This document shows positions 3,429 to 31,232 of a stretch of DNA of 64,000 bases, piece by piece (positions within the stretch are counted from its first letter, which is position 1; every line of letters starts with the position of its first letter). The position numbers and the translations under genes are program-made. The DNA is taken from positions 124,001-188,000 of the forward strand of contig JAIVFH010000017.1 in assembly GCA_025765595.1 (NCBI GenBank), written 5' to 3'. The notes under the pieces were generated by a model, which saw nothing but the letters and a program-made list of their open reading frames with translations, did no database searches and was not told the origin of the DNA. Source of the stretch: Obelidium mucronatum (lineage: Eukaryota; Chytridiomycota; Chytridiomycetes; Chytridiales; Chytriomycetaceae).

Positions 3429-5695
3429 TCAAGCCAAATCCCTCTCCACCATCTGAGCACAGATTGGGTGATAAAAGCCCTTGTGCTTCAAAAAAGTCTC
3501 CCTGGCAAGCTTTTCCCCCGCTGTAGAACACTTTTTGAGCGCACGGTAGAGTGGTCGCACGTACTTCATTCTCCCCATGGTCGTGACGAAATCAACAACC
3601 TCCGGGAAAATCACTTCTCTCCCGCTCGCAAGACACAGCTCTTGCCATCTGCAGCGAATCTCGCAGTTTCTGCCCACAGTGAATTTGTAGACTGAATCCA
3701 TGGTATCCAAGACTGCGATCGAGAACTTGACTCCGTTGGCAGAGGATGCTTCAGTCATCAAAGTCTCCAAAAAGACAACTGTTTGGTTGGTGGAAAACTC
3801 GGAAATATCTTTTTCCGAGAAATTGTGAGAAGGGACTGGGTTCTTGGCGTAGTCAGTCCAGCGGGTGGCAAGGCTTTTGCATGCCTCTGCAAGGGACTGG
3901 TCAAACTTGTTCTCAACTGGAGGCTTGTAGATTGAAAAACAATTGAGTCAGTTGGTTGACATCAAAAAAGAAAAAAACGGAACCAACAACATACCATTCC
4001 AGAAGCAAAGAACCAAGTATCCCAGTCAACCGTGTTGAGAATGTCCACCTTCTCCTGCCCAAAAGTCTTTTCAAAGTAGGCATACAAGTTATCCTTGAAC
4101 TGAAACGAGTTGATGGACTTGTGACTGAACGTCTCGACATGGTTCCGCAAGTATCCATCAAAGACTTCACTTCCACCCAAAATGCTCTCCAAATAAAACA
4201 GCAAATGGAACCCCTTTTCATACGGTACCGTTGAGAAGGCGTCATCAGGGTCGCATCCCTTCAAGTCTTGCACAAGGCGACAGAATTGTGGAGTCTTGAT
4301 CTCATTGTAGTGATCAACAGATTCTTGTAACGCCTTCACACCCAGCAGAGCAGAAAAGTGACGTGCGGGTTCTCCGTGGAGTCTGGAAACGATACGGCGT
4401 TCGATAAACATTGTGAATCCTTCATTCAACCAGAAATGCTCCCATGAGGCTGAGGTGACAAGGTTGCCCATCCAGGAATGGGCGATTTCGTGTGCAACAA
4501 CGTCGACAAGGGACCGGTCGCCAGCAAGAAGCGATGGAGTGACAAAAGTCTGACGACAAAAAAGAAATCAGACAAGGAACCAGCAAAGGAGCACCAAAAA
4601 CCCATACCAAACACGGATTCTCCATTCCTCCATACGGGAAACTCGCTGGCAAAACAAGCAAATCATACACTCCCCACACGTAGGGAGTCAAAATCTCTTC
4701 TCCTGTTTTGATAAACAGCTCCGTGTCCTGGAATTCCCAGGCAGCCTTCTCGACTACTTCCGGCTCGCTCCACACCGTGGTTCGTGGACCCACGCGTTTT
4801 CCTTCAATGTTGCCGACGGCGAGGGCAATCAGGTAACTGGGGATGGAGATTTGTTGGGTAAAGTTGCATGTTTTGACGTTTCCTGAAACAGTTTCGGATG
4901 TGGGAACGGCGCTCATTAACGCGCGAAGATGGGAGGGGCATCTGATTTCAGCCGTGTCTATCGGATGAAAAATGGGTGAATGAGAGGTGGATGGTTTTTC
5001 TAAGACGGCTCTAATCGAAACTCACATTTGAGCTTCACGTAGGGAGAATCTTGAATAGGCGCCAGTGTACGTGCATAAATTGGTTGGCATTGAGTGAACA
5101 TGTATGGATGCTTCTTTCCCACAGTTTGGCTGCGGTTGGTTAAAGCATCAATCGATTAGAATAAGTATTGACGTGGAAAGAAAAAGTCCAAAGCTTGTAC
5201 AAAATACCTGGGTTCCAGCCACTGTGCCGCCAAACATCCGTCTTTGGAGGTTCTGTAAAAGACTTGGACACTGACTTGGTCCCCGACTTGCAGACCCTCA
5301 TTCAAAGGAATGCGAAGAGGGGCTCCATAGCACGCATCAATGTCTCCAAGAACGTATGCTACCTGCGAATCGTTGACAAGGGTCTTTTCAATGAGCAGGT
5401 TTTTGGTGTCCTGTCCAAGAAAAAACTGCATTAGAGCCACGACAGCATTGACAATGAGAGCAAACGAAGAAAGAGAAACATCGCCAAGAGGTTTTGCATA
5501 AAAGATAGAGCGTGCCCAGATAGTTACCAGAACCAGTTCTTTCACTCCAGCTTCCACAACAGTGCACTTGTGTGTGACGGAACCAATCAGGATGTGGTTG
5601 AAGAAGTCGGTTTCAAGCGACAAATGCACAGTTGTAATTGCAATCTGGTGGGCGTTTGCATATGAGTTTGGGTCGAAAGGCGCCGTGAAGCACAT
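3429..5695 (-). CDS. M1 aminopeptidase, leukotriene A4 hydrolase type
   Basis: Six exons (5695-5528, 5410-5208, 5129-5026, 4957-4608, 4549-3995, 3923-3429), 624 aa, the usual length of the LTA4H/Rap subfamily. Order seen: N-terminal beta domain with [21 protein letters not shown], the substrate motif PYGGMENP, the zinc site HEIAHSWMG followed by NEGFT (second zinc Glu), and a C-terminal helical domain ending in VERDLA. All zinc and GGMEN residues are present, so it should be an active zinc aminopeptidase, possibly also an epoxide hydrolase as in yeast and animals. Likely cytosolic, since no signal peptide is seen. Intron 5 ends in ACAAG rather than YAG. The start is the first ATG with A-rich context, upstream of the conserved beta domain. 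Confidence 0.9.
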
Positions 5696-6091
5696 TTTTT
5701 GTTGGATTCCGAAAACTTCCGAACCGATGGTAACAGCTGAATTGAATACTGACTAATAATGTCCGAATGTATTGGCTACGGCATAGACGTCTTTCTTAAT
5801 CATTCTTTCGCTGGAAAGATCTGGTGGTGGAAAATATCTTTATTGGCGACAATACAAATAATTTAAAGAGTTGCCATCGAAATGGATATTAAAGGCAGAG
5901 TCCGAAAATAACACGGCATGATTTTATTTCGAGTTTATCCGATGTTCCGAAAAATAACTATGCACGAGTTTATCCGATGTGTGGGTGGAAGTTGGAATTT
6001 CATCCACGATTTCTGATCTACAAAAAGGCCAAAAACCTCACTGAAAAGACAACACAACCAACCACCACCACGTTTCATCCAGCCAGCCACG
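5696..6091. other. Intergenic region, divergent promoters of the M1 peptidase and the HAC1-like gene
   Basis: No coding sequence is seen. The right end is the untranslated leader of the bZIP gene. Positions 6051-6060 are perfectly complementary to 7311-7320 inside the proposed long intron of that gene. Confidence 0.4.
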
Positions 6092-7758
6092 ATGCTCACA
6101 ATGTTCCAACAGCCTGTGCTCCTGCCTCCTGCGCCACAACAGCATAAAGCCCTCAAACGGCGACGAAGCGACTCCCCCTCAGACGAAACTGAGCTGCCTG
6201 AGGCACCGCCCGGTGTTGACGCAGAGGCATACGCAGAGGCTGTTGGAACGAGCAAGAGCAAGCGAACCCCGTCTCAGCGCGAGGTGATCAAGCAGGCTAG
6301 GTGAGCTATCGAAGAGATGATTGCTGGGATACCCCTCTCTAACACAATCCCCACACAGAATCGTACGCAACCGTATTGCCGCCCAAACAAGTCGCGACAA
6401 GAAGCGACGAACCTTCGAAGACCTCGAAGTCACCAACGCATCCCTGATGAATCGCCTCGAGGCGATGGACAAACTCAACGCAGAACTCCTGGCCCAAGTG
6501 AAGGCCCTTTCTCACCAAGTGGCCTCATTGACCGCCTCTTCGTCTTCGGCTTCCTGCAGCATGGCCTCTTTGGTGCCGCTTCCTGTATCTCCCAGTCTAT
6601 CGTCCCATTCGACTTCCCCAACTCTCTATTCCCACCATGACACTCCGTTGTTTCCAGAGTCGTCACCATCTCACCAATTCTCTCTTTTTCACTCTACTTC
6701 CATTCTTGGTCAAGGCGAGCCAGCAGCGCTCCCCTCGCTAGAAGAATCTGTAAACTGAAACCTTACGTCCAGCTTTGTTGTGTTTAAACGAGCTCCACGA
6801 TTTGCATCTCCTGTCCGTTCTGAAATTGGTTTCCCGCAGCACTTCTTTGTCGCCTTGGGGGTTTTCTGACTGCAAGCACAAGCTGGGATCTGGGCACTTT
6901 TTCTTCCTGATTTGCAGTGTCTTGGCGCCACTGGCACTCGATTGCTCCGCTCAACTATAGTTATTGTTTGGCTTTGGTTATTGCTTGTCTTGGTACTGTA
7001 TTTGAGATGGATCGGACGTGGCATAGAACGATGGATGATGGGGAAATAATCTGCGTTGGAATCAAGAGTTGAGCTGTCGGGAACCGCAATGGAACCTCCT
7101 TGGTTCATTCCGGTCTCTTCGCTGCTTTTCCTCTTGGTTGCGACAAAGGGTTGTTTTTCCAAATTCTTGAATGACATGCCTCGTTCGTTCCTCACAAAGA
7201 CGTGCCATACTAGCAGTTGCCAGTTTCCGGGGTTGAGCATGTTGCATTAAGAGAGTGTCAGTTTGGTTCTAAAGATGTTGTAAAGCGGGGAGGTAAATGT
7301 GACTTGATTCTGGTTGTGTTTTGCTGGTTCGTAACCCCTTTAGGTCGACGAGTTTGTGCGTATGGGCGACCTTTTTCTTGCGCGACACCGGATGCGTTTT
7401 CTGTTGTGGTAGTTGACGGGTTTCTCTGTTCATTTTGATTACGGGTTCTTCGGGTGCTTTACTATCTTGTCGATGTACACTCACAAGTCTCTGTGTGTGT
7501 CGCAGTAGTGGTATTCCCCTTTATGGTTCTTTTGCAGCCGCGACCAAGCTAAATGATGGAAATGGAGTGAATGAGTTGAGTTTTTTGGATGATTTGAACT
7601 TTGATGATGATGTTGTTGGTGGTGGTGATGGGTTGGATGCCGCGTTGGATGCCTTGTTTGCTGGGTTGCCGGATCAAGGACCAACGGACATTTTCGCTCA
7701 CTGTGATGTTGAGACTGTGGAACCAGTATTGGATTTCGCTGAATTCTTGCAGTTTTGA
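6092..7758 (+). CDS. HAC1: HAC1/XBP1-type bZIP factor of the unfolded protein response, with a long intron
   Basis: Exon 1 is 6092-6300 and exon 2 starts at 6359 after a 58-nt GTGAGC..ACACAG intron. Together they encode a basic region of HAC1/XBP1 type (VRNRIAAQTSRDKKRR) and a leucine-zipper helix. Read straight on, the frame closes at 6758 (202 aa). Another frame at 7535-7758 encodes a very acidic tail (LNDGNGVNELSFLDDLNFDD ... FAEFLQF) with no start of its own. The only AATAAA after the gene is at 7790, so one transcript probably spans both. Joining 6723 to 7535 restores frame and gives 265 aa ending in the acidic activation-type domain. In known HAC1/XBP1 mRNAs, ER stress triggers Ire1 cleavage that adds such a tail. 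A weak spliceosomal alternative is a GTCAAG donor near 6708. The bZIP call is firm; the splicing mechanism is inferred. Confidence 0.75.
6713..6735 (+). promoter_or_regulatory. Candidate Ire1 5' cleavage hairpin in the HAC1-like mRNA
   Basis: Arms 6717-6720 (GAGC) and 6728-6731 (GCTC) close a 7-nt loop CAGCAGC at 6721-6727. Three more pairs (6713-6715 with 6733-6735) extend the stem after one C-C mismatch. The loop fits the CNG|CNGN rule of Ire1 sites in HAC1 and XBP1, with the cut after 6723. It lies in the last 12 codons of the unspliced frame, where HAC1 5' sites are found. Confidence 0.6.
7524..7546 (+). promoter_or_regulatory. Candidate Ire1 3' cleavage site in the HAC1-like mRNA
   Basis: The core UUG|CAGC (7532-7538, cut after 7534) shares G|CAGC with the 5' loop. 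A 5-bp stem (7524-7528 with 7542-7546, TGGTT and GACCA) is placed symmetrically around the 7-nt core, but three bases on each side of the core are mostly unpaired and the first loop base is U, not C. Cleavage here gives exact in-frame joining to the acidic tail. Weaker than the 5' hairpin. Confidence 0.4.
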
Positions 7759-7800: not shown

Positions 7801-8526
7801 GTTTCGTTGAAATCGTCTTGTCGCTTATCTTATGCTTAAGTCTGGCTTACCATATAGTTGGATGTTGCTACTTACATGATCCTCCAGAACTCACAAGCGC
7901 TCGCAAGTCACAGTAGCGGATTGCGTCTCTGAAAAGTATTTGCCAGTTGACAACGTTGACGTGGATTGTGTCAGTGAAAACGACTGATCGAGCAACGATG
8001 AGTCAAAACAGGGCAACTTTCGATCAGCTTACATTTTGAGCCCCGGCAACAACCGCCAAAGCTGTCATATCCGGGAAGCACAAATAGCACTCAACGAAAT
8101 TGATTCACGTCCGTCATACGCCCTCTCCGGCTCGCTCGGATCGCTTATCGCACAAAAGTTACAGGTTTGGAAAGTCAAGCCCAATTTTAAGTGTCTAATT
8201 TTTTTTTTGGCAGACACAGGGAGGCTCCTTTTATTTGTAAGCAGTCGTGCTGCCCTCCAGACTGCGATATCGCTCTAAACTCTTGACCGCTTATGAATTT
8301 TTGGGTGCTCTATGCCTTCTGAGGTATGGCTCCCTTGGGAATGATCAAGTAGCAGAACTTCGAACTTTGGGTGCCTTGCCAACATAAAAGATTTTCTCCT
8401 CTTTCAATGGAGATAGAGCGACGTGACGCTGACGACTCGAAATTCCTATGCATGCTCCTTGAGAAAAAAAAGGGTATAAATGCAACGTCTTCCCGCCAGT
8501 TTCTTTTCCTTAAAAAAAAACAAAAC
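7801..8526. other. Intergenic region upstream of the CBM9-like gene
   Basis: I see no supported gene. The last 60 bases contain GTATAAA (8473-8481 area) and an A-rich stretch just before the start codon, consistent with a promoter and leader. Confidence 0.4.
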
Positions 8527-9331
8527 ATGCTCGCCTCTGCTATTCTCTCCCTTGCTGCCGCTGCTACCGTTGCCACAGCTCAAACTTTGAACTGCCCCAA
8601 GCCAAATGTGACTCCCATCTACCGATGCAATGCCCAAGGTGTCAACATCGCGTCCGTCCAGATCGCACAGAATCTTGGTGACCGTAGCTTGTATGCGGCC
8701 CCATCTACCGTGTCTATTTGCTACACCGATGATGCTATCAAGTTGAACTTCTTGAACACCAAGGAACCATACTACGCCGTTAACCCAGCTTACGGCCACA
8801 ACGACAACATTTGGGAGCAGACTGTTGCTGAGGCATTCATTGTCAACGTTCCAAGCTACGACGTTGACCCAACTACTTACCTTGAATTCGAGGTTTCCCC
8901 AACCAACCAGACCTACTCTGCCTTCATCTACAACCCATCCAAGGTACATCTTCAATGATCAATTGTTATTGCGACATAGTTCTAAATTGAAATTGCTATT
9001 CCAGGTTCGCACTGCTGGAACTCCATTCGACCACTTCTTTGTTGGTAGTCAGCCAATCGACTCCACCAACAGCTGCAAGGACGGCCGCTGCGCCCGTTTC
9101 AACGGAATCACTGCCGCTACCACCACCAACAAGGCCCAAAAGACATGGACTTCCGATGTTTCCCTCCCATTGGCCCTCTTCAATGTGAACCGTCCAGCGG
9201 GAACCATCTGGAGAGCCAACTTCTTCAGAACCACCTTTGACGGCAAGGACCAGACATACGGTGCCTGGAATGCTCCTAATGTTATCAGCTTCCACCAAGT
9301 TCCATGCTTTGGAACTCTCCAGTTCTTCTAA
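8527..9331 (+). CDS. Secreted CBM9-like domain protein, intact copy
   Basis: Two exons (8527-8943, 9005-9331), 247 aa, phase-0 intron of 61 nt. Residues 1-19 are a clear signal peptide (MLASAILSLAAAATVATAQ). The mature part has the features of the CBM9-like/DOMON-type carbohydrate-binding fold of fungal secreted proteins: alternating strands, NDNIWEQTVAEAFI, TYLEFEVSPTNQTYSAFIYNPS, and WTSDVSLPLALFNV before WRANFFRT. Several Cys (CPKP, YRC, CKDGRC, CFG) may form disulfides. The substrate is unknown. Codon use is strongly biased to C-ending codons, suggesting high expression. A near-identical broken copy lies 1.7 kb downstream in the same direction. Family call is moderate. Confidence 0.7.
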
Positions 9332-10215
9332 ATCTCCTTTTTTACGAAAGACCACCGCCTCCCAGCACCCCAACTAAAATGCCAAAGTGCGAACCTGATT
9401 ACATGAAATGAAATAAAAAAACAGCTTCTATCTCGTTATCAGTTTTTCGGGTACTTTGGAGTGATTGTGTGGTATTGGAGTTTGGAGTGTGACTTAGCTT
9501 TCTTGTGATTCATGAAGATCCTTGATGCTTGAGAAGCAAGGTAACAATGGCCATCGGTGTATTTGGAAGCGATTCGAGTGGAGCAATGTAGACACAGTTG
9601 ACAGACACAGAAGAGTGATATGAGTATGGGAGGCACCGTGCCTTGGAGGTGTCAGCAAAATTTTTTTCGTCACGTGAAAACGTTCTGTTTTTTTCTTTCT
9701 AGAAATGGCAAAGAAGACAGAGAGCCAAAGATGAGGGAATCTTATACGTGTATGTATTTGAGATAAGAGTAATGGTCTGTACATGAAAAAATAGAGGGCC
9801 AGTACGATTTAAAATTAGAGACTGACTCTTTTCTTCCGTGAAGTGCCGAAACGGAATTTTTTTTGCTTAAGGAAATTTCTTGGAAGTTTGACATGGTAGG
9901 TAGTACAAGGTCAGAAACGTTCAAAAACATCAGTATAGGTCCTAACCCCTTTATGCACATGTCAAAGCGAGTTTCAGCGAATCAAAGACCCCCCCCCCCC
10001 CCCCCCCCGTAGAGCCAGAATCCACCCTCAAATACGAAATGACAAGACGAACTGGAGACGAACATGATAGGGCCTGAAAATTTGTCGAAAATTTGATCAA
10101 TTAAGAAATGCAATTTTCGGAAGGCTCAAAGTTAAAGTATAAATTCAGGCAACTCCTCTCACTTTTGAACACAGAATCAAAAGCTTCCCCTTCAAAAACC
10201 GAAAAAGAACAAAAA
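9332..10215. other. Intergenic region between the two CBM9-like copies
   Basis: No gene is seen. It contains a run of 20 C at 9989-10008 and the promoter of the second copy, which is much less similar to the first copy's promoter than the coding parts are to each other. Confidence 0.5.
9989..10008. repeat. Poly-C run (20 C)
   Basis: Twenty C in a row upstream of the second CBM9-like copy. A run of 28 G lies just downstream of the same copy, in the opposite base sense on this strand. Confidence 0.9.
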
Positions 10216-11019
10216 ATGATCGCCTCTGCTATCCTCTCCCTTCCTCCGCTGCCACTGTTGCTACTGCTCAAACTTTGAACTGCCCCAAGCCAAATGTGGT
10301 TCCCATCTACCGTTGCAATGCCCCAGGTGTCACCACCGCATCTGTTCAGATTGCCCAGAATCTTGGTGACCGTAGCTTGTATGTCGCCCCATCTACCGTG
10401 TCCATTTGCTACACTGACGATGCCATCAAGTTGAACTTCTTGAACACCAAGGAACCATACTACGCCGTTAACCCAGCTTACGGCCACAACGACAACATTT
10501 GGGAACAGACTGTTGCTGAGGCATTTATTGTCAACGTTCCAAGCTACGACGTTGACCCAACTACTTACCTTGAATTCGAGGTTTCCCCAACCAACCAGAC
10601 CTACTCTGCCTTCATCTACAACCCATCCAAGGTACTTCTTCAATGATCAATTGTTATTGCGACATAGTTCTAAATTGAAATTGCTATTCCAGGTTCGCAC
10701 TGCTGGAACTCCATTCGACCACTTTTTTGTTGGTAGTCAGCCAATCGACTCCACCAACAGCTGCAAGGACGGCCGCTGCGCCCGTTTCAACGGAATCACT
10801 GCCGCTACCACCACCAACAAGGCCCAAAAGACATGGACCTCCGACGTTTCCCTCCCATTGGCCCTCTTCAACGTGAACCGTCCAGCTGGAACCATCTGGA
10901 GAGCCAACTTCTTCAGAACCACCTTTGACGGCAAGGACCAAACCTACGGTGCCTGGAACGCTCCTAATGTTATCAGCTTCCACCAAGTTCCATGCTTTGG
11001 AACTCTCCAATTCTTTTGA
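10216..11019 (+). pseudogene. Second CBM9-like copy with a 1-nt deletion in the signal peptide
   Basis: Aligned with 8527-9331. Exon 1 would be 10216-10631 and exon 2 10693-11019, with the intron differing at one base of about 61. After the start codon and eight matching codons, one base is missing around 10246, so the frame closes after 20 codons in place of the signal peptide. Downstream of the lesion the frame stays open to the normal stop (TGA 11017-11019) with nearly the same protein. Either a very recent pseudogene or a consensus error. It could not be secreted as read. Confidence 0.7.
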
Positions 11020-11974: not shown

Positions 11975-14900
11975 ATGTCACCGCCACAGTCGCCGACCTT
12001 GTCCGCGCACCAATTAGAAGCGGCGGCTGAATACGAAGACGGCGTTGCGTTCCTCGAGTCGCCGGCGGAAGGGGACTCTGACGTGGTGTTCTGGGAGTCG
12101 CCGGTGGCCAGCGAAGACGGCCGGTCGCTGCAGGGCGAAGTGCCGGAGATTGCGCTGGACTGGTTTGCGGAGACGGAGGCGGCGGCGGGCGGCGGCGGCG
12201 GCGGCAACTCGAGCGGCAACTTGAACGCCAGCGCCAACACCGACACCAACGGCAGCAGCGCCAGACACAACGCGGCGCGCGCCGTGTCGCGGCTTGCGTT
12301 CCTCGCGCGGCTCGACGCGCTGCGCAGCGAGGCGGGCGGCGGCGCGGCGCGCGGCGCGTTCGTGGCCGTGGCGCCCGAGGCCGGCGGCGGCGGCGGCGGC
12401 GGCGGCAGCGGCTTCACGGTGCTGCGCCACCGGCAGCTGAAGGACCTCGTGTTCGACCAGGCCGCGCCGCTGCCGCCGCCGCCGCCGCCCGAGGACCCGC
12501 CGCCGCCGCGCTTCGCCTTCATCCGCCGCGCGTCAGAGGCCGCCGCCGCGAAAGACGCGCCGACTGTGTTCAAGGATCTGCTGTCGAAGACGGCGATCCG
12601 GGGCTCGTCGCTCGGCCAGCGACGCTCGTTCAACGCTGACCAGCCACAAGTGTCTCCTTCGTTAAAGTCTGGATCTCAGCCTTTACTGAACTTGCCAACT
12701 GCTCCAGCCTCCGTTGGCGGCAGTAACGCGGATGGCTCAAAGTTCAGAGTCTTGCGTGCAACAAAAGGAGCGAGTCTTGAGACGTTTCCAAATCCGTCAT
12801 TGACTACTATGGATCTTCAACCAATGAATCCCGCATCTGCGAGAGCTACTGTTTTACCTGACCATTATGGCCTTTCTATTTCGCCATCTCAATCGCCGAG
12901 TCAAATACTAGAGACGTCCTTACGTGCTCACAATGTGTCGTTGCCAAATACGCTCATGCCACCAGACCCATCTTTTTCTGCACCCGCCCAATCCAGTAAT
13001 GATTCGAAACGACCATTACCAGTTGCCTCCTCATCCTCAGAATACATACTTGTCACCAGCCCTCCCCCGAGACGAGCTCCCCCACCTCCGCAACGTTCGG
13101 TCCCAGGATTTTCAGCAGATTCAACTTCATCTGCTCTTGCCCCAGGAGAACGAATATTCATCGCAAGTCCGTCACCAAGACCTGCACCACCTCCACCAAT
13201 AGACCAACCTGCATTTGGTCCACCTCCTGGATCCCCTCAACATTCTTTCTCCACCGTTTCTCCAGTGAACTCTATCAAACCGTTTGGAATTCGTTCAGTT
13301 CAACTCGCTGAAAAGACCTCCTTTAAATTATTGAGGACACATAAAAAGAAGGACGAAGACAACGTCGAATTGTCACCTGTTTCTGCCACTCTGGATCCTT
13401 CGGTTAGCATTTTAAACAGCAGTGGCTTTTCATTGCCTTCATCTCCTGTTCATAGTCGACAAACTCATCATCAGGAGATTACGAACGTTTTACCTGTCCT
13501 TCCACCTCAATCTGCAGCACCTCCTCTTCCTGCTATTCCACCGCCGATCGAAACCATCAGTTTAGCACACAACAATATTAATGAAAAAGGCCATCAAATC
13601 GATTCAGCCGGTGTTTCACCGCCGCTTTCGAATACTGTTGATCTCAACGCTATCAATGATTCTAAAGTAAAACCACTGACAAGGAAGCCGCCCCCACCTC
13701 CACCGATTCGTGTACAGCAGCAACAGCAAGCGACGCAGCCGGATTTCTTTATAAAAAAGTTTATTCTTGCGAAAATGTGCATTGAGGGAAGTGAAAAATA
13801 TGCAGTGAGCGAGGAAGAAGCGCAACTTTGGAAGGAGGAAGGGCTTAGATACCTTCACGAATTGAAGGCGTCTAATATGCCTGAAACTCAGTATTATTTA
13901 GGGATGTGTTATGCCAAGGACGGGAATTGTGAGTTTTATATTCTTTGTTTTTCATGGTAGTCATGACTGACATAAAAACAGACAACCAGGCTTTCCCTGC
14001 TTATAAGGCGGCAGCCGTAGCAACTTTTACAGAAGCCTATTATGCTGTCGCTGTTTGTTTTGAACATGGACTGGGGACATCTGTTTCGTTGAATGAAGCC
14101 AAGTTCTACTATGAAGAAGGGGCAAAAGAGAACCATCTGCTGTCAATGCATAGAATGGCAGTGGCTCTCCTCAACGGCGATCTGGGATGGAAGGTTGATA
14201 TTGTTGAAGGTCTCGATTGGCTGCACAAGTGTGCTGATTGTGAGTGTTTCCTTGAGGTTTTGCTCTCGACGCTGACAAGGTCCATCTCTTTTTTGCTTTG
14301 TTTTTGATTTCAAGACCCGCAACAAGATAGCACCAAGTCGCTTGCTCTCTATCAGCTTTCTTTCATTTATGAACATGGGTTTCCAAATCGACTTGTTATT
14401 CCAAGCGTTATTTTGGCCAACAAGTATATTTTGGAAGCCGTCAATAACCAACATGTTGGTGCAATGACTCGCCTTGCCGCGGCCTATGAATCCGGATCTC
14501 CAGCTTTGGGAATTTCTAGAGACATGATCAAAGCTACTGAATTGTATATAGAAGCTGCAGCCCTGGGCGATCCTGAAGCAATGTTCATACTTGCAGAGTA
14601 TTACCTGACAGGGGTCACAATAATGGATTGTGGATGCTCATTGGATGCTCAACACGCCACCAGCAGTTCTGCAAGTAATTCGCTGATGATCAGCCCGTCA
14701 GCAGAAGAACTCATTGATACATGGGCGCTTCCCGGCCTGGAAAGCCATTCCATCCCGACACCGCCAAACAGTCCCCCAGCAACACTATTTCATTTAGAAG
14801 AACCTATGCAAACCACCACCCAAAAGCCACATGATGGACCCTGTGCATTCCGATGCCTGATTCCCCAATCAATCGAAGACGCATACGCATTGCTAGAAAA

Positions 14901-23084: not shown

Positions 23085-23884
23085 TTTCTCTTTATTTACT
23101 TTATCTACTTTAAAACAAACGAAGAACCTCCGAATAGATGTTTGAATCAGAGAGTGCGGGACTTTGGATCGCGACAGGTAACTAAACTGCGGCATCGGAT
23201 AGTATGGAATTTGGAAACCATTCATCCATCTAAACGCGTGGACTTACTATCAAACAGTGGCAGGCGCAATTGCTTCTCACGGGATCGGCTTTTTATTCCT
23301 TTGTCCAAATGTGGTTACGCGTATTCTTCTTTCGAAGGGAACCTACGAAAAGGCCCCCACCAAACCTCAACTGTCAAACAGAACAGTACCAAACTCTAAA
23401 TAAAACAACCAAACAGAATCCACGAATCTGGCGGCAGAAACAAGAACCCACATGATATAAGCCACGCTGCAAGAAGCCTCTACAGCTTCACGACAGACAT
23501 AATTCGTTCATACATTGACTTGCACCTACTGCTTGCATTTTCGTCATACACTTCCACCAGCCTAACTCTTCCTCATGCGTTCTACTCAACTCTGCTGATT
23601 TGGCTTGCTTATATCGTTCCCGTTCTTGGATCCGATGTGTTTTGGGAAGGTCGAAACTATCATACAGCAGTGTATTCTGCTGCGCGCCATTTAGTTTCTC
23701 TTCTCTCAATCACTGCGGTCTTTTATTATTCCGACTCTATTTTCGGGCTTGATCTTTTTTAAAGAGAAGGAGAAAGAGTGTGAAGCAAACTTAAACAATA
23801 AACAAACAGGTTTTATTTCATTGAGTTGCAGGCAAAAAAAAGGGGGGTGCAAAAAATGCAATTAAAAAGAATAACAAATTGAAT
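23085..23884. other. Intergenic region with one arm of the segmental duplication
   Basis: No gene is seen. From about 23653 to 23884 the sequence is repeated at about 28350-28583 with few changes, as the 3' flank of the duplicated secreted-protein gene. The part at 23085-23650 has no counterpart in the other copy. Confidence 0.6.
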
Positions 23885-24250
23885 TTAGTTCTCAACTTCC
23901 TCCAATTCTGGGGAACCGGATCCAACGGCGACAGCTGTCTTGGAGTTTGTTGTGGCACTCAACGCCAAATAAACATCTTGAAGAACTTTGAGAGACGCAG
24001 GCTCATTGCATGCCCCCAAGACACTTGAAATCGCTTGATTTGGCGTCGTTGCTGTGGCAGCAGCACTGATTGCGCCCTGAGCCAGCTTTCCGAGATTATC
24101 AATCAACTGGGGGTTTGAGAATACAGCAAGGCCATTTGCAATAACGTTGGTATCAATAGAGATAGACGCTTGAGCATTCAGACTGCCAGTGACTTGAGTC
24201 AAAACCTTAATCAATTCGCTGGCTCCTTGAACCACTTCTGTGTTGGATAG

Positions 24251-27576: not shown

Positions 27577-28252
27577 GATAGAATTCCAAACACACTAGCA
27601 ATGGCCTTGGTTGGATCACTTCCAGCCTGCGTGGCAGCCTGAGAAGCGTCGAGACCAGCTTGAATAACTTTGATTGCGCTGTTGTAGACGTCCGTGGTGA
27701 GAAGTGGGGTAACAGTCGGTGCAAGTGACATGAGTTGGAGTGGAGAAGAGTTTCCAGTTCCAGAGCCACTGATGACGGCGGTTATCAAACCGACAATTGC
27801 AGGAATGTTTCCAATAATGGCAGTCAAAATTTGCGTGGCAGTGGTCGTGGCAGCAACTGCAACTTGAGCATCTTGTGGGCCGCCTGGGATTGGAAGAGAC
27901 ATGGCCACCAAGGGGAGGACAGAGAAGACGAAAACGTAGTAAAGATTCATTTCTAGAGTATTGGCTTTTGGTGTTGAGAGGGTTTGATGCTCCTTTTGAA
28001 AGCCATTCGTTGTGCCTTTTATACAGTTTTCAAGCCAATAACCACCATGAGATTTTTTCGTGCTTGCACGACGCAGTTTGACAAACGAGCACCCCAATAA
28101 GTTCGACTCATAGGTTCTAAAATGCCATTCATTAGAGCAATTAAATTTGTTTCTGCTGTCCGAGTGTTCGGACAAACACAGGTATTTAAACGGCATTCCC
28201 GGACAAACAAGAAAAACACGCCAAAAACACGCAATGCTCCTGCTCTTTAATC

Positions 28253-28349: not shown

Positions 28350-28583
28350 GAAACTGTCATACAGCAGTGTATTCTGCGGCGCGCAATTTAGTTTATCTTC
28401 TCTCAATCACTGCGGTCTTTTATGATTCCGACTCTATTTTCGGGCTTGATCTTTTTTAAAGATTTAAAGAGAAAGAGAAAGAGTGTGAAGCAAACGTAAA
28501 CAATAAACAGGTTTTATTTCATTGAGTTGCAGGTAAAAAAAGGGGGGTGCAAAAAATGCAATTAAAAAGAATAAAAATTTGAA

Positions 28584-29309
28584 TTAGTTCTCAACTTCCT
28601 CCAATTCTGGGGAACCGGATCCAACGGCGACAGCTGTCTTGGAGTCTGTTGTGGCACTCAGCGCCAAATAAACATCTTGAAGAACTTTGAGAGACGCAGG
28701 CTCATTGCATGCCCCCAAGACACTCGAAATCGCTTGATTTGGCGTCGTTGCTGTGGCAGCAGCACTGATTGCGCCCTGAGCCAGCTTTGCGAGATTATCA
28801 ATCAACTGGGGGTTTGAGAATACAGCAAGGCCATTTGCAATAACGTTGGCATCGATAGAGATAGACGCTTGAGCATTCAGACTGCCAGTGACTTGAGTCA
28901 AAACCTTAATCAATTCGCTGGCTTCTTGAACCACTTCTGTGTTGGATAGAATTCCAAACACACTAGCAATGGCCTTGGTTGGATCACTTCCAGCCTGCGT
29001 GGCAGCCTGAGAAGCATCGAGACCAGCTTGAATAACTTTGATTGCGCTGTTGTAGACGTCCGTGGTAAGAAGTGGGGTAACAGTCGGTGCAAGTGACATG
29101 AGTTGGACTGGAGAAGAGTTTCCCGTTGCAGAGCCACTAATGACGGCGGTTATCAAACCGACAATTGCAGGAATGTTTCCAATAATGGCAGTCAAAATTT
29201 GCGTAGCCGTGGTCGTGGCAACTTGAGCATCTTGTGGGCCGCCTGGGATTGGAAGAGACATGACCGCCAATGGGAGGGCAGAGAAGGCGAAGGCGTAGTA
29301 AAGATTCAT
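28584..29309 (-). CDS. Secreted Ala/Thr-rich protein, intact duplicate
   Basis: Single exon, 241 aa. Signal peptide MNLYYAFAFSALPLAVMSLP, then alternating hydrophobic and small-residue segments (ATQILTAIIGNIPAIVGLITAVISGS, VIQAGLDASQAATQAGSD, NAQASISIDANVIANGL, AISAAATATTPNQAISSV) and an acidic end (SPELEEVEN). Only one or two Cys. I do not recognise the family; the pattern resembles fungal surface-binding secreted proteins, but that is only an impression. An in-frame ATG 57 bases upstream would hide the signal peptide, so I chose 29309. The split paralogue lies at 23885-27950. Divergent from the F-box gene over a 297-bp promoter. Confidence 0.7.
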   Translation of the reverse strand: MNLYYAFAFSALPLAVMSLPIPGGPQDAQVATTTATQILTAIIGNIPAIVGLITAVISGSATGNSSPVQLMSLAPTVTPLLTTDVYNSAIKVIQAGLDASQAATQAGSDPTKAIASVFGILSNTEVVQEASELIKVLTQVTGSLNAQASISIDANVIANGLAVFSNPQLIDNLAKLAQGAISAAATATTPNQAISSVLGACNEPASLKVLQDVYLALSATTDSKTAVAVGSGSPELEEVEN

Positions 29310-29606
29310 TTCTAGATTTTTTGGCTTTTGGCGTTGAGAGGGTTTGATGCTCCTTTTGAAAGCCATTCGTGGTGCCTTTTATACAGTTTTCAAGCCAATA
29401 ACCACCATGAGATTTTTTCGTGTTTGCACGACGCAGTTTGACAAACGAGCACCCCAATAAGTTCGACTCATAGGTCCTAAAATGCCATTCATTAGAGCAA
29501 TTAAATTTGTTTCTGCTGTCCGAACACAAGCGGGTTCGGACAAACGCAGGTATTTAAGCGGCATTCCCGGACAAACAAGCACTAAAAAAGACGCCAAAAA
29601 CACGCG
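29310..29606. promoter_or_regulatory. Divergent promoter of the secreted-protein gene and the F-box gene
   Basis: 297 bases between start codons. The same promoter, with few changes, lies at 27951-28232 in the other copy, where it faces only the stub of the F-box gene. Contains CTTTTATACAG about 80 bases upstream of the secreted gene start. Confidence 0.5.
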
Positions 29607-31232
29607 ATGCTCCTGCTGCTGCCGCCCGAAGTCGCGCAGCTCGTCTTCGGCTTCGTCGCCGACGCCGCGTCGCTCGCCCGCGTCGGCGCCGCCAGCCGCG
29701 TCTTGCGCGCGCACGTGCGCTGCGATCGGCTGTGGCGGCGCGTGTGCGCGGCGCAGGGCTACGAGGCGCCGCCGCCGTGCGTCCTGTTCTCTTTCTTCTT
29801 TTTTCTATTTCTCTTGTTTTTGTGTCTGACGATTCGATGAACGAAAACAGACCCGGTCTGTCGCCAAGAGACGTCGCCGTGCTGGCTGCAAAGACGCGCT
29901 GCGATCGATGCGGTCGGCGCGCAACAAAGACAAACTGGCCAACGTTTGAAAAACTGTGCAGTAAAACCCACGCGTTTGTTACTTTCTCTCTTTTTTTTTT
30001 TGAGCTTGTCGTTGGTTCTTGAACTCTGACAATTTGATCTGCAACAGTGAAATACTACCAAACCCAGTCACACTTCTTGACTCCTTCCCGGAATGGTCGT
30101 TTCAGCAGAGCAAGATTGACTTGGATCGCACAAGAGCCCGGCTGGATTTAATTGCTCACCACAAGGCGTCCAAACGGACAGAACTCATTGATCACTTTTC
30201 CAAGTTGCCAAGCACCACAATCAATCAAACAACTGCTTACATTCTTGACCTTTGTCCTCCTTTTAAGCGCATCTGCTCTGCCAAATCGTTGGTTTCGAAT
30301 CGTGTCTTTCAAAATGCCAGAGCTGTTCTCGAACCAGAAATCAAGCGTGTCCGAATCGAGCAATTGGCTGATGACATATTCAAGGAAATGTGCACTCGAG
30401 CCTTTTTAGCCGTCCCCACTTGGGCTCCTGCTCCTTTTTGCTTCAATCAATATAATGGATATTTGAGATCGGTGGGAACAGATGTTGCTGCCTTGTACCT
30501 GACAGCTTTTAAAGGTATTAAACCCCCTTTTTTGGAGGAGAATTTTCTTTGATGGTGGGTAGGATCAAATATCTCAAGAATTGCGGCTCGTCGTTTTAGA
30601 CATGGCTTGGAACGATCCGCTTCCTGTTGCAGATGTGACTGTGGAACTCAACCGATTACAGAACAAACTCGTTCGGCCGTTCCGAAGCTTTCAAGTGCAT
30701 AAGCAAACACTCCTGAGAAAGTATCCAGACGTGTCAAGTATGATGATTCTCTTTCAAAGTCATTGGGTCACTGCTATAAAAGGTACTGTTCAAACAAATA
30801 ATTGGCAACTAGCTCTAATACTGTTTTACCTTGATTTTTGAATATTTAGAATTGTTTGCCGAAACTATATTACTTTCCCATCAAGAACAATACGCCAAAT
30901 TCGATGCTCTGTTCAATGAATACATGATTCAATATCGTTTGATCAAGCTGTTTCCAAACTGTCACGCGCGATTCGCTTCTCCCTATATTCGAATCAGCCC
31001 CAATCAGAGGCGGCTTTTTGTCGAGCAAAACGGCGTTCTTGCCTGGTTTCTCAAACATCCTGGTTGTAAGTTACCGCTCTCTATTCATTTTCATTCCCTA
31101 TTCATCTTGTCACAACAAACAGACTTTGATTACAAAAATCCAATCTGGTACCAGAAATACAACGATTTTGAACGCGATGCGCATGCGTGGATACAATGTA
31201 TTAACCAAACTCGCATCGCCTTAAAATTCTGA
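29607..31232 (+). CDS. F-box protein
   Basis: Six exons (29607-29776, 29851-29973, 30048-30514, 30579-30782, 30850-31065, 31123-31232), 429 aa. The F-box is at the very N-terminus (LLPPEVAQLVFGFVADAASLARVGAASRVL ... LWRRVC), the Skp1-binding module of SCF ubiquitin ligases. A Cys cluster follows (CDRC ... EKLC). The rest is helical with Trp/Tyr-rich motifs (YLTAFKELRLVVLDMAWNDP, HAWIQCINQTRIALKF) and no known substrate-binding repeat, so the target is unknown. Exon 1 is extremely G+C-rich and codes Ala/Arg/Val-rich sequence, unlike the later exons. Exon junctions were set by phase; introns 2-4 use weak donors or acceptors (GTTTGT, CAAG). Confidence 0.75.

Follow-up and report, generated by a model that had tools for sequence, protein, structure and literature searches.

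A HAC1-type gene of the chytrid Obelidium mucronatum with a long candidate Ire1 intron and a predicted exon-intron-exon RNA rod

The genome of Obelidium mucronatum (Chytridiomycota, Chytridiales, Chytriomycetaceae; assembly of 48.3 Mb in 694 contigs) contains a gene which, judged from its sequence, is a HAC1 (XBP1-type) gene with a bZIP product and which very probably works by Ire1 splicing. It is located at positions 6092-7758 of the window, the stretch of 64,000 nucleotides that was analyzed here (positions 124001-188000 of contig C17). The explanation that accounts best for the computational data, and that is considered very likely, is a HAC1-type gene spliced by Ire1, whose long intron is predicted to be part of a rod with a zipper next to both cuts. 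This explanation draws on the identity of the gene, its reading frames, the selection on its tail, the hairpin at the 5′ site, the rod and the zipper as structure predictions, and the presence of Ire1 and ligase domains in the genome.

From unstressed mRNA, with intron 1 removed in the ordinary way, a bZIP protein of 202 aa without the acidic tail would be produced. Under ER stress, Ire1 would cut between G6723 and C6724 in the loop of a canonical hairpin and a second time at a 3′ site within 7532-7541, most likely between G7534 and C7535. Joining of the exons by an RNA ligase would then swap the last 10 residues for an acidic activation tail, resulting in a protein of 265 aa in total. The rod of about 1 kb, formed by the end of exon 2, the intron and the start of the tail, would hold the two cuts, which lie about 811 nt apart, together, and the exon-exon zipper would close this rod directly beside both of them. 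New in this study is the predicted rod of about 1 kb with its exon zipper, spanning exon, intron and tail.

The gene, its copies and its acidic tail

A bZIP region of HAC1/XBP1 type had already been recognized in the preliminary description of this DNA, and this is borne out by a PF07716 match, representing the bZIP domain, in the public Obelidium mucronatum protein P0001 (BDR26DRAFT_932316), by the basic region RNRIAAQTSRDKKRR and by weaker matches to proteins that resemble HacA. P0001 corresponds to a second gene copy on C17, with which the end of the protein agrees, and the join of exon 1 and exon 2 given in Table 1 is read through in the same manner. A protein profile search, which scored only the 7993 candidates with most shared words, yielded 15 proteins at E-values up to 1, namely eight from chytrids (Obelidium, Siphonaria, Rhizoclosmatium, Podochytrium, Physocladia, two from Entophlyctis, and Chytriomyces) and seven weaker others. 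Three of the latter, P0009, P0010 and P0013, are among the best matches beyond the eight chytrid proteins, share a similar RNRxAAQTSR basic region and are presumably HacA proteins, although none of them bears this name in its source. The HacA intron of filamentous fungi is about 20 nt long. Searches of the viral contig and genome contig collections yielded no further HAC1 relatives. In addition, a divergent bZIP gene with 29-30% identity, apparently not a HAC1 gene, was observed at two places (L005 on C155 and L006 on C59).

Table 1. Positions of the features of the HAC1-type gene within the window (a slash marks a cut, brackets enclose a loop).
Feature	Position	Strand	Description
Exon 1	6092-6300	+	ATG at 6092; N-terminal region of the HAC1-type protein
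Intron 1	6301-6358	+	GT-AG, 58 nt, GTGAGC...CACAG; CTAAC 20 nt before intron end
Exon 2 to 5′ Ire1 cut	6359-6723	+	bZIP and Ser/Pro-rich stretch; end ...LGQGEP(A)
5′ Ire1 hairpin	6717-6731	+	GAGC(CAG/CAGC)GCUC, predicted cut after 6723; codes EPAAL
Unspliced-frame stop	6756-6758	+	TGA, from frame reading
Candidate Ire1 intron	6724-7534	+	811 nt; 804, 804 and 802 nt in the other copies
3′ site hairpin	7525-7539	+	predicted GGUU(CUUUUGC)AGCC; G7534/C7535 at loop positions 6/7 (canonical: 3/4)
3′ exon, acidic tail	7535-7758	+	73 aa from AATK with 17 D/E and 1 K/R; ends DFAEFLQF, stop TGA
Predicted RNA rod	6618-7636	+	about 1 kb, one imperfect hairpin with 339 pairs (63 G-U), apex near 7097-7101
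Zipper, 5′ exon strand	6688-6711	+	predicted pairing with 7542-7571
Zipper, 3′ exon strand	7542-7571	+	predicted pairing with 6688-6711

Four near-identical copies of the gene are present in the genome: the copy in the window, one each on C232 and C373, and the second copy on C17, which lies in inverse orientation 43 kb away from the first. The C232 copy is 93% identical to the window copy across all 9.9 kb compared, and the C373 copy is about 95% identical to the second C17 copy in two long stretches. The four copies thus probably represent one pair of inverted-duplicate genes, present in each of two haplotypes. When the window copy is compared with either copy of the other gene, similarity ends at the stop codon of the tail (7758). 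The inverted duplication relates window positions 3433-4981 and 5689-7758 to positions 85613-89224 of C17 (L015 2614-6225); it carries the HAC1 gene together with its upstream neighbour region and is 91-93% identical to the window copy. Upstream of the gene on C373, about 1.1 kb of sequence (L017 5588-6704) is without a counterpart at the second C17 copy and represents an insertion or deletion between the two. Direct duplications were also observed in the window: positions 8513-9327 and 10202-11015 (95%) each contain a gene that starts with MLASAILSLAAAATVATAQ, looks secreted and has the intron donor GTACAT, and direct repeats of about 600-680 bases with 93-95% identity were found at 23653-24250 and 28350-28949 as well as at 27577-28244 and 28945-29617.

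The unspliced frame does end at 6758, as described before, and the unspliced products of the four copies comprise 202, 202, 203 and 203 aa. An acidic tail without a start, likewise noted earlier downstream of this stop, was recovered as a frame that is open from 7417 to 7758 and contains no Met. Among the four copies the tail codons 7540-7755 exhibit a pN/pS of 0.17, compared to 1.56 and 1.62 for the other two frames, which argues that the tail is a coding sequence under selection at the protein level; the corresponding value for the end of exon 2 is 0.15. Indels among the copies (1-nt and other) reach to about 7519-7522, where a T-run makes their placement ambiguous, and none occurs within 7523-7758, so that the 3′ exon would start in about 7523-7546. 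A genome search for the tail returned four places, which are the four gene copies, with the tail adjoining the bZIP part in each of them. Furthermore, the models P0004 from Podochytrium and P0008 from Chytriomyces contain a related tail, which starts with A-x-x-K-(L/F)-N-D-G directly after ..IL.

That the tail is never joined to the bZIP part, being a gene of its own or a degenerate relic, would fit with its absence from the public models P0001, P0003, P0005, P0006 and P0007 (Obelidium, Rhizoclosmatium, Physocladia, Entophlyctis). However, a frame devoid of Met, strong coding selection, adjacency to the bZIP part in four of four copies and fusion to it in the models of two other genera make this extremely improbable.

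The two splice sites

For the 5′ site, the preliminary description had proposed a loop CAGCAGC (6721-6727) fitting the motif CNG/CNGN on a 4-bp stem with three further pairs. This was confirmed: GAGC pairs with GCTC, followed by a C.C mismatch and the pairs G-C, G-C and A-U, and among the five 7-nt loops in 6359-7758 with G/C at loop positions 3/4 and a stem of at least 3 bp it is the only one that fits CNG/CNGN. Shuffled versions of exon 2 contained a mean of 0.0195 CNG/CNGN loops with a stem of at least 4 bp (2000 shuffles), and the whole window of 64 kb contains seven of them on the plus and ten on the minus strand. Stem and loop are unchanged in all four gene copies. In the free full-length ensemble the probability of the hairpin is low (0.13-0.31), since UGGUUC competes for pairing with GAGCCA; imposing the hairpin costs 1.4-1.9 kcal/mol. 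Local folding of both sites, suggested earlier as a check, lent no support, with five local folds being no stabler than shuffled sequences.

The peptide GEPAAL, which spans this site, was found in six of the eight chytrid relatives (five genera; P0002 is a partial record), where it is located 0-9 residues from the C-terminus, and in none of the seven non-chytrid matches. The residues that follow GEPAAL vary between genera, VDF being common to the two Entophlyctis proteins only. P0004 and P0008, which lack GEPAAL, jump from the residue directly preceding its place to the tail. As PAA in this frame (CCN GCN GCN) spells the loop CNGCNGC and as the protein end in question is a truncated one, the conservation of GEPAAL appears best explained by the RNA hairpin, whose conservation among chytrid genera is read from proteins only.

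A join of 6723 to 7535, as put forward before, restores the frame with G/CAGC at both sites and yields 265 codons followed by a stop. The frames are open for such a swap of the C-terminus in all four copies, in-frame joining by itself being a 1-in-3 event. As for the earlier claim of an 811-nt Ire1 intron, its length of about 811 nt and its 5′ site are supported, but the loop at the 3′ site does not carry CNG/CNGN and the junction there is approximate. A loop scan of 6359-7758 revealed no 7-nt CNG/CNGN loop at the 3′ site. The hairpin that is predicted there instead (pair U7528-A7536) has a probability of 0.17-0.52 when the RNA folds freely and of 0.40-0.78 with the 5′ hairpin forced. Since there are three in-frame G/C steps (7534/7535, 7537/7538 and 7540/7541) and the loop departs from CNG/CNGN, the position of the 3′ junction carries an uncertainty of a few bases.

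Accordingly, Ire1 might cut at 6723 as in the preferred explanation, but on the 3′ side at 7537/7538, 7540/7541 or 7531/7532, which is judged somewhat unlikely. All of these cuts would preserve the frame and change the protein by one or two residues. Positions 7535-7541 read CAGCCGC and match CNG/CNGN by sequence, yet no closing 7-nt loop exists around them. The step 7537/7538 sits in a tetraloop C(AG/CC)G, whose pair C7535-G7540, however, has a probability of 0.02-0.05. The cut 7531/7532 would be at the canonical position 3/4 in the middle of the predicted loop CUUUUGC, but it is not a G/C step. The word G/CAGC of the 5′ site recurs solely at 7534/7535 among the in-frame G/C steps, and this favors G7534/C7535 as the second cut.

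Removal of the intron by the spliceosome, as an ordinary GT-AG intron of 829 nt from 6709 (TTG/GTCAAG) to 7537 (TTTTGCAG), would join SIL to AATKLNDG, with loss of GQGEPA. Here, a GT donor and an AG acceptor are present in phase, the join is in frame, and TTTTGCAG is a good spliceosomal acceptor, with CAG after a U-rich stretch. The models P0004 (..PILAATKFNDG..) and P0008 (..SILAEAKLNDG..), known from the proteins only, are compatible with a join of this type. Yet there are only two right-phase GTs in 6500-6760, so that a gene caller restricted to GT-AG could easily be forced into the same choice in two genera. The donor GTCAAG has a C at position +3, where a purine is found in five of five introns placed by eye, a small sample (58, 61, 81, 85 and 112 nt; donors GTGAGC, GTATGG, GTAACA, GTATGT and GTACAT). 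Moreover, a YTRAY branch-site word is present in the last 60 nt of four of these five introns, but in none of the four copies of the GT-AG candidate. The donor at 6709 also lies inside the predicted zipper, where it is paired with a probability of about 1.0, and the conserved GEPAAL hairpin is left without an account by this join. Taken together, spliceosomal removal appears very unlikely, and Ire1 splicing is preferred.

The predicted RNA rod and the exon-exon zipper

In each of the four copies, the end of the exon, the intron and the start of the tail were predicted to fold as one rod, with 331, 341 and 340 pairs in the three copies outside the window. The rod of the window copy is far more stable than shuffled sequences (z = −11.2; minus strand −2.3; 60 shuffles each), and the same holds true for the intron alone (z = −8.5; minus strand −0.9; 60 shuffles). 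Under block shuffles that keep the local composition, z-scores of −8.3, −10.7 and −11.2 were obtained for the rod, and under shuffles in 60-nt blocks the minus strand of the region reached −3.8. Compared to 72 control windows of equal length within the 64 kb (8 shuffles each), the rod has a z-score of −9.0 and the lowest control one of −4.5. The latter value belongs to positions 12251-13267 on the plus strand (GC 0.61), the strongest fold among the controls. The difference in folding between plus and minus strand points to the rod being a feature of the RNA rather than a palindrome of the DNA.

Sequences with simulated changes, matched in number and kind to those between the copies, folded with −350 to −377 kcal/mol, compared to −423 to −438 kcal/mol for the real copies. 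With indels included, folds were 59-78 kcal/mol weaker than the real ones, and with substitutions only they were 36-74 kcal/mol weaker; in both cases none of 24 simulations reached the real value in any of the 12 ordered pairs of copies. These simulated changes fall at random, without coding constraint or clustering. Covariation of paired rod columns was absent among the four copies, conserved pairing being no better than in slid controls (0.34-0.52); among pairs with a substitution, 26 of 60, 34 of 66, 32 of 66 and 30 of 68 can still form in all copies. In the intron there is a weak tendency for paired columns to be less variable than unpaired ones (one-sided p = 0.018, 0.08, 0.041 and 0.11 for the four reference folds). 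A search against Rfam yielded only a sub-threshold match to UCA1 (18.5 bits at a cut-off of 80).

The rod is predicted to be closed by three helices between the two exons (6688-6696 with 7563-7571, 6698-6704 with 7555-7561, and 6705-6711 with 7542-7548), the pairs of 6705-6711 having probabilities of 0.99-1.00 in all four copies. The duplex of this zipper reaches −33.7 kcal/mol, compared to −16.2 kcal/mol (sd 3.5), and values as low occurred in one of 1000 shuffles and in none of 960 pairs of control windows. The zipper closes at 6711/7542. Its 5′ exon strand stops 12 nt short of the 5′ cut, its 3′ exon strand starts 7 nt past the likeliest 3′ cut, and it is predicted to place the two splice sites opposite one another. 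Columns that vary among the copies are rare in the zones around the splice sites (one of 43 in 6681-6723 and three of 85 in 7523-7607) compared to five stretches of the intron (0.081-0.152), and coding constraint may contribute to this low variability. A 10-bp helix of 6739-6748 with 7525-7534, also considered, was dropped with a probability of 0 in full-length folds. The predicted zipper and rod add evidence for an Ire1 intron beyond that of the preliminary description.

The rod could also serve another role, such as silencing by double-stranded RNA, control of translation or mRNA stability, with its register to the splice sites being accidental. The short HAC1 introns described so far are not known to need a rod of this length, which speaks for such a role, and a function together with the 5′ UTR might be envisaged, as windows of the intron pair better with the 5′ UTR on average than other windows do (mean of −31.3 compared to −22.4 kcal/mol). 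The best pairing of 5′ UTR and intron (−44.8 kcal/mol) was, however, matched by seven of 240 control windows, and in the full-length fold the 5′ UTR pairs with exon 1 and with the tail and 3′ UTR. The closure of the zipper so close to both cuts argues against an accidental register, and the strong strand bias against a simple DNA palindrome. A role apart from splicing is hence considered rather unlikely. The region of 5′ UTR and exon 1 (5990-6300) was itself observed to fold somewhat better than shuffled sequences (z = −2.4, 0 of 60).

Ire1, ligase and known HAC1 systems

A genome search identified a single RNase domain PF06479 (E = 6.5e-44; L014 2294-2770, minus strand), and a kinase match and a PQQ-like stretch adjoin it on the same strand, so that this one locus looks like a whole Ire1. 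A ligase domain PF09511 was found on C29, split over two stretches that each exceed the cut-off; the match, which is taken as a ligase of the Trl1 type, runs through stop codons that are probably due to introns. In an alignment, the Obelidium RNase domain exhibits an E where human Ire1 has the D of FQDVSDR, and a K in RNKKHHY. These two positions are presumably those of K992 and Y1059 of S. cerevisiae. D or E at 992 together with K or R at 1059 is the pattern of S. pombe, also found in human Ire1, and in vitro, yeast Ire1 with D992 and R1059 cuts at G/C when the loop has 3, 7 or 9 nt (PMC8104961, excerpt). By analogy, a relaxed 3′ site is plausible in Obelidium, as its RNase domain carries E and K like this relaxed-specificity pattern. 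It is conceivable, though somewhat doubtful, that chytrids of this group possess a distinct class of Ire1 introns, in which a kilobase exon-intron-exon rod instead of twin canonical hairpins would define the substrate, with the zipper fixing the register, the 5′ loop being canonical and the 3′ cut being a minimal G/C step tolerated by an Ire1 with a relaxed interface.

In metazoan XBP1, G/CAGC occurs at the cuts, and the intron of 26 nt is flanked by twin canonical hairpins. A “conformational RNA zipper”, an exon-exon pairing beside both cuts, was reportedly described for it by Peschek in 2015. The Obelidium gene resembles XBP1 in G/CAGC at the cuts and in its predicted exon-exon zipper, but differs by its intron of about 811 nt with the predicted rod.

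In S. cerevisiae the HAC1 intron comprises 252 nt (PMC6222058, excerpt), and the exons are joined by the ligase Trl1 (PMC6592678, excerpt), a ligase domain of that type being present in the Obelidium genome. The motif of yeast Ire1, CNG/(C/A)NGN in a 7-nt loop (PMC8104961, excerpt), occurs at the 5′ site of Obelidium. The S. cerevisiae intron pairs with the 5′ UTR, which blocks translation (PMC6592678, excerpt), whereas no such pairing clearly stands out in Obelidium.

The preliminary description had set the length of the candidate intron against 20-250 nt for most fungal HAC1 introns and several hundred bases in C. parapsilosis. The excerpted text of PMC6222058 gives 626 nt for C. parapsilosis and up to 848 nt for the CTG-Ser1 clade; by length alone the intron is within the known range and no record. 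For a HAC1 intron in chytrids, a literature search listed a single paper, which deals with anaerobic fungi. The HAC1 gene of the CTG-Ser1 yeasts is, as in Obelidium, a bZIP gene whose long Ire1 intron lies towards the end of the ORF, and the C-terminal tail is swapped by its splicing (PMC6222058, excerpt). Hairpin loops are reported there at both splice sites, in contrast to the non-canonical 3′ hairpin of Obelidium, and a kilobase exon-intron-exon rod, as predicted for Obelidium, is not described in this excerpt for CTG-Ser1 yeasts, which belong to a remote phylum.

If the preferred explanation is correct, public chytrid HAC1 models would be wrong, with P0001, P0003, P0005, P0006 and P0007 ending in the intron and P0004 and P0008 using a doubtful GT-AG join, and the annotation of the chytrid stress response would be in need of correction. 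It would make testable whether recognition by Ire1 relies on local hairpins or on a more extended scaffold. In addition, it would extend a worked-out architecture of Ire1-HAC1 splicing to chytrids and suggest a means by which Ire1 cuts nearly 1 kb apart are held together, a question that arises in the same way for the long introns of yeasts.
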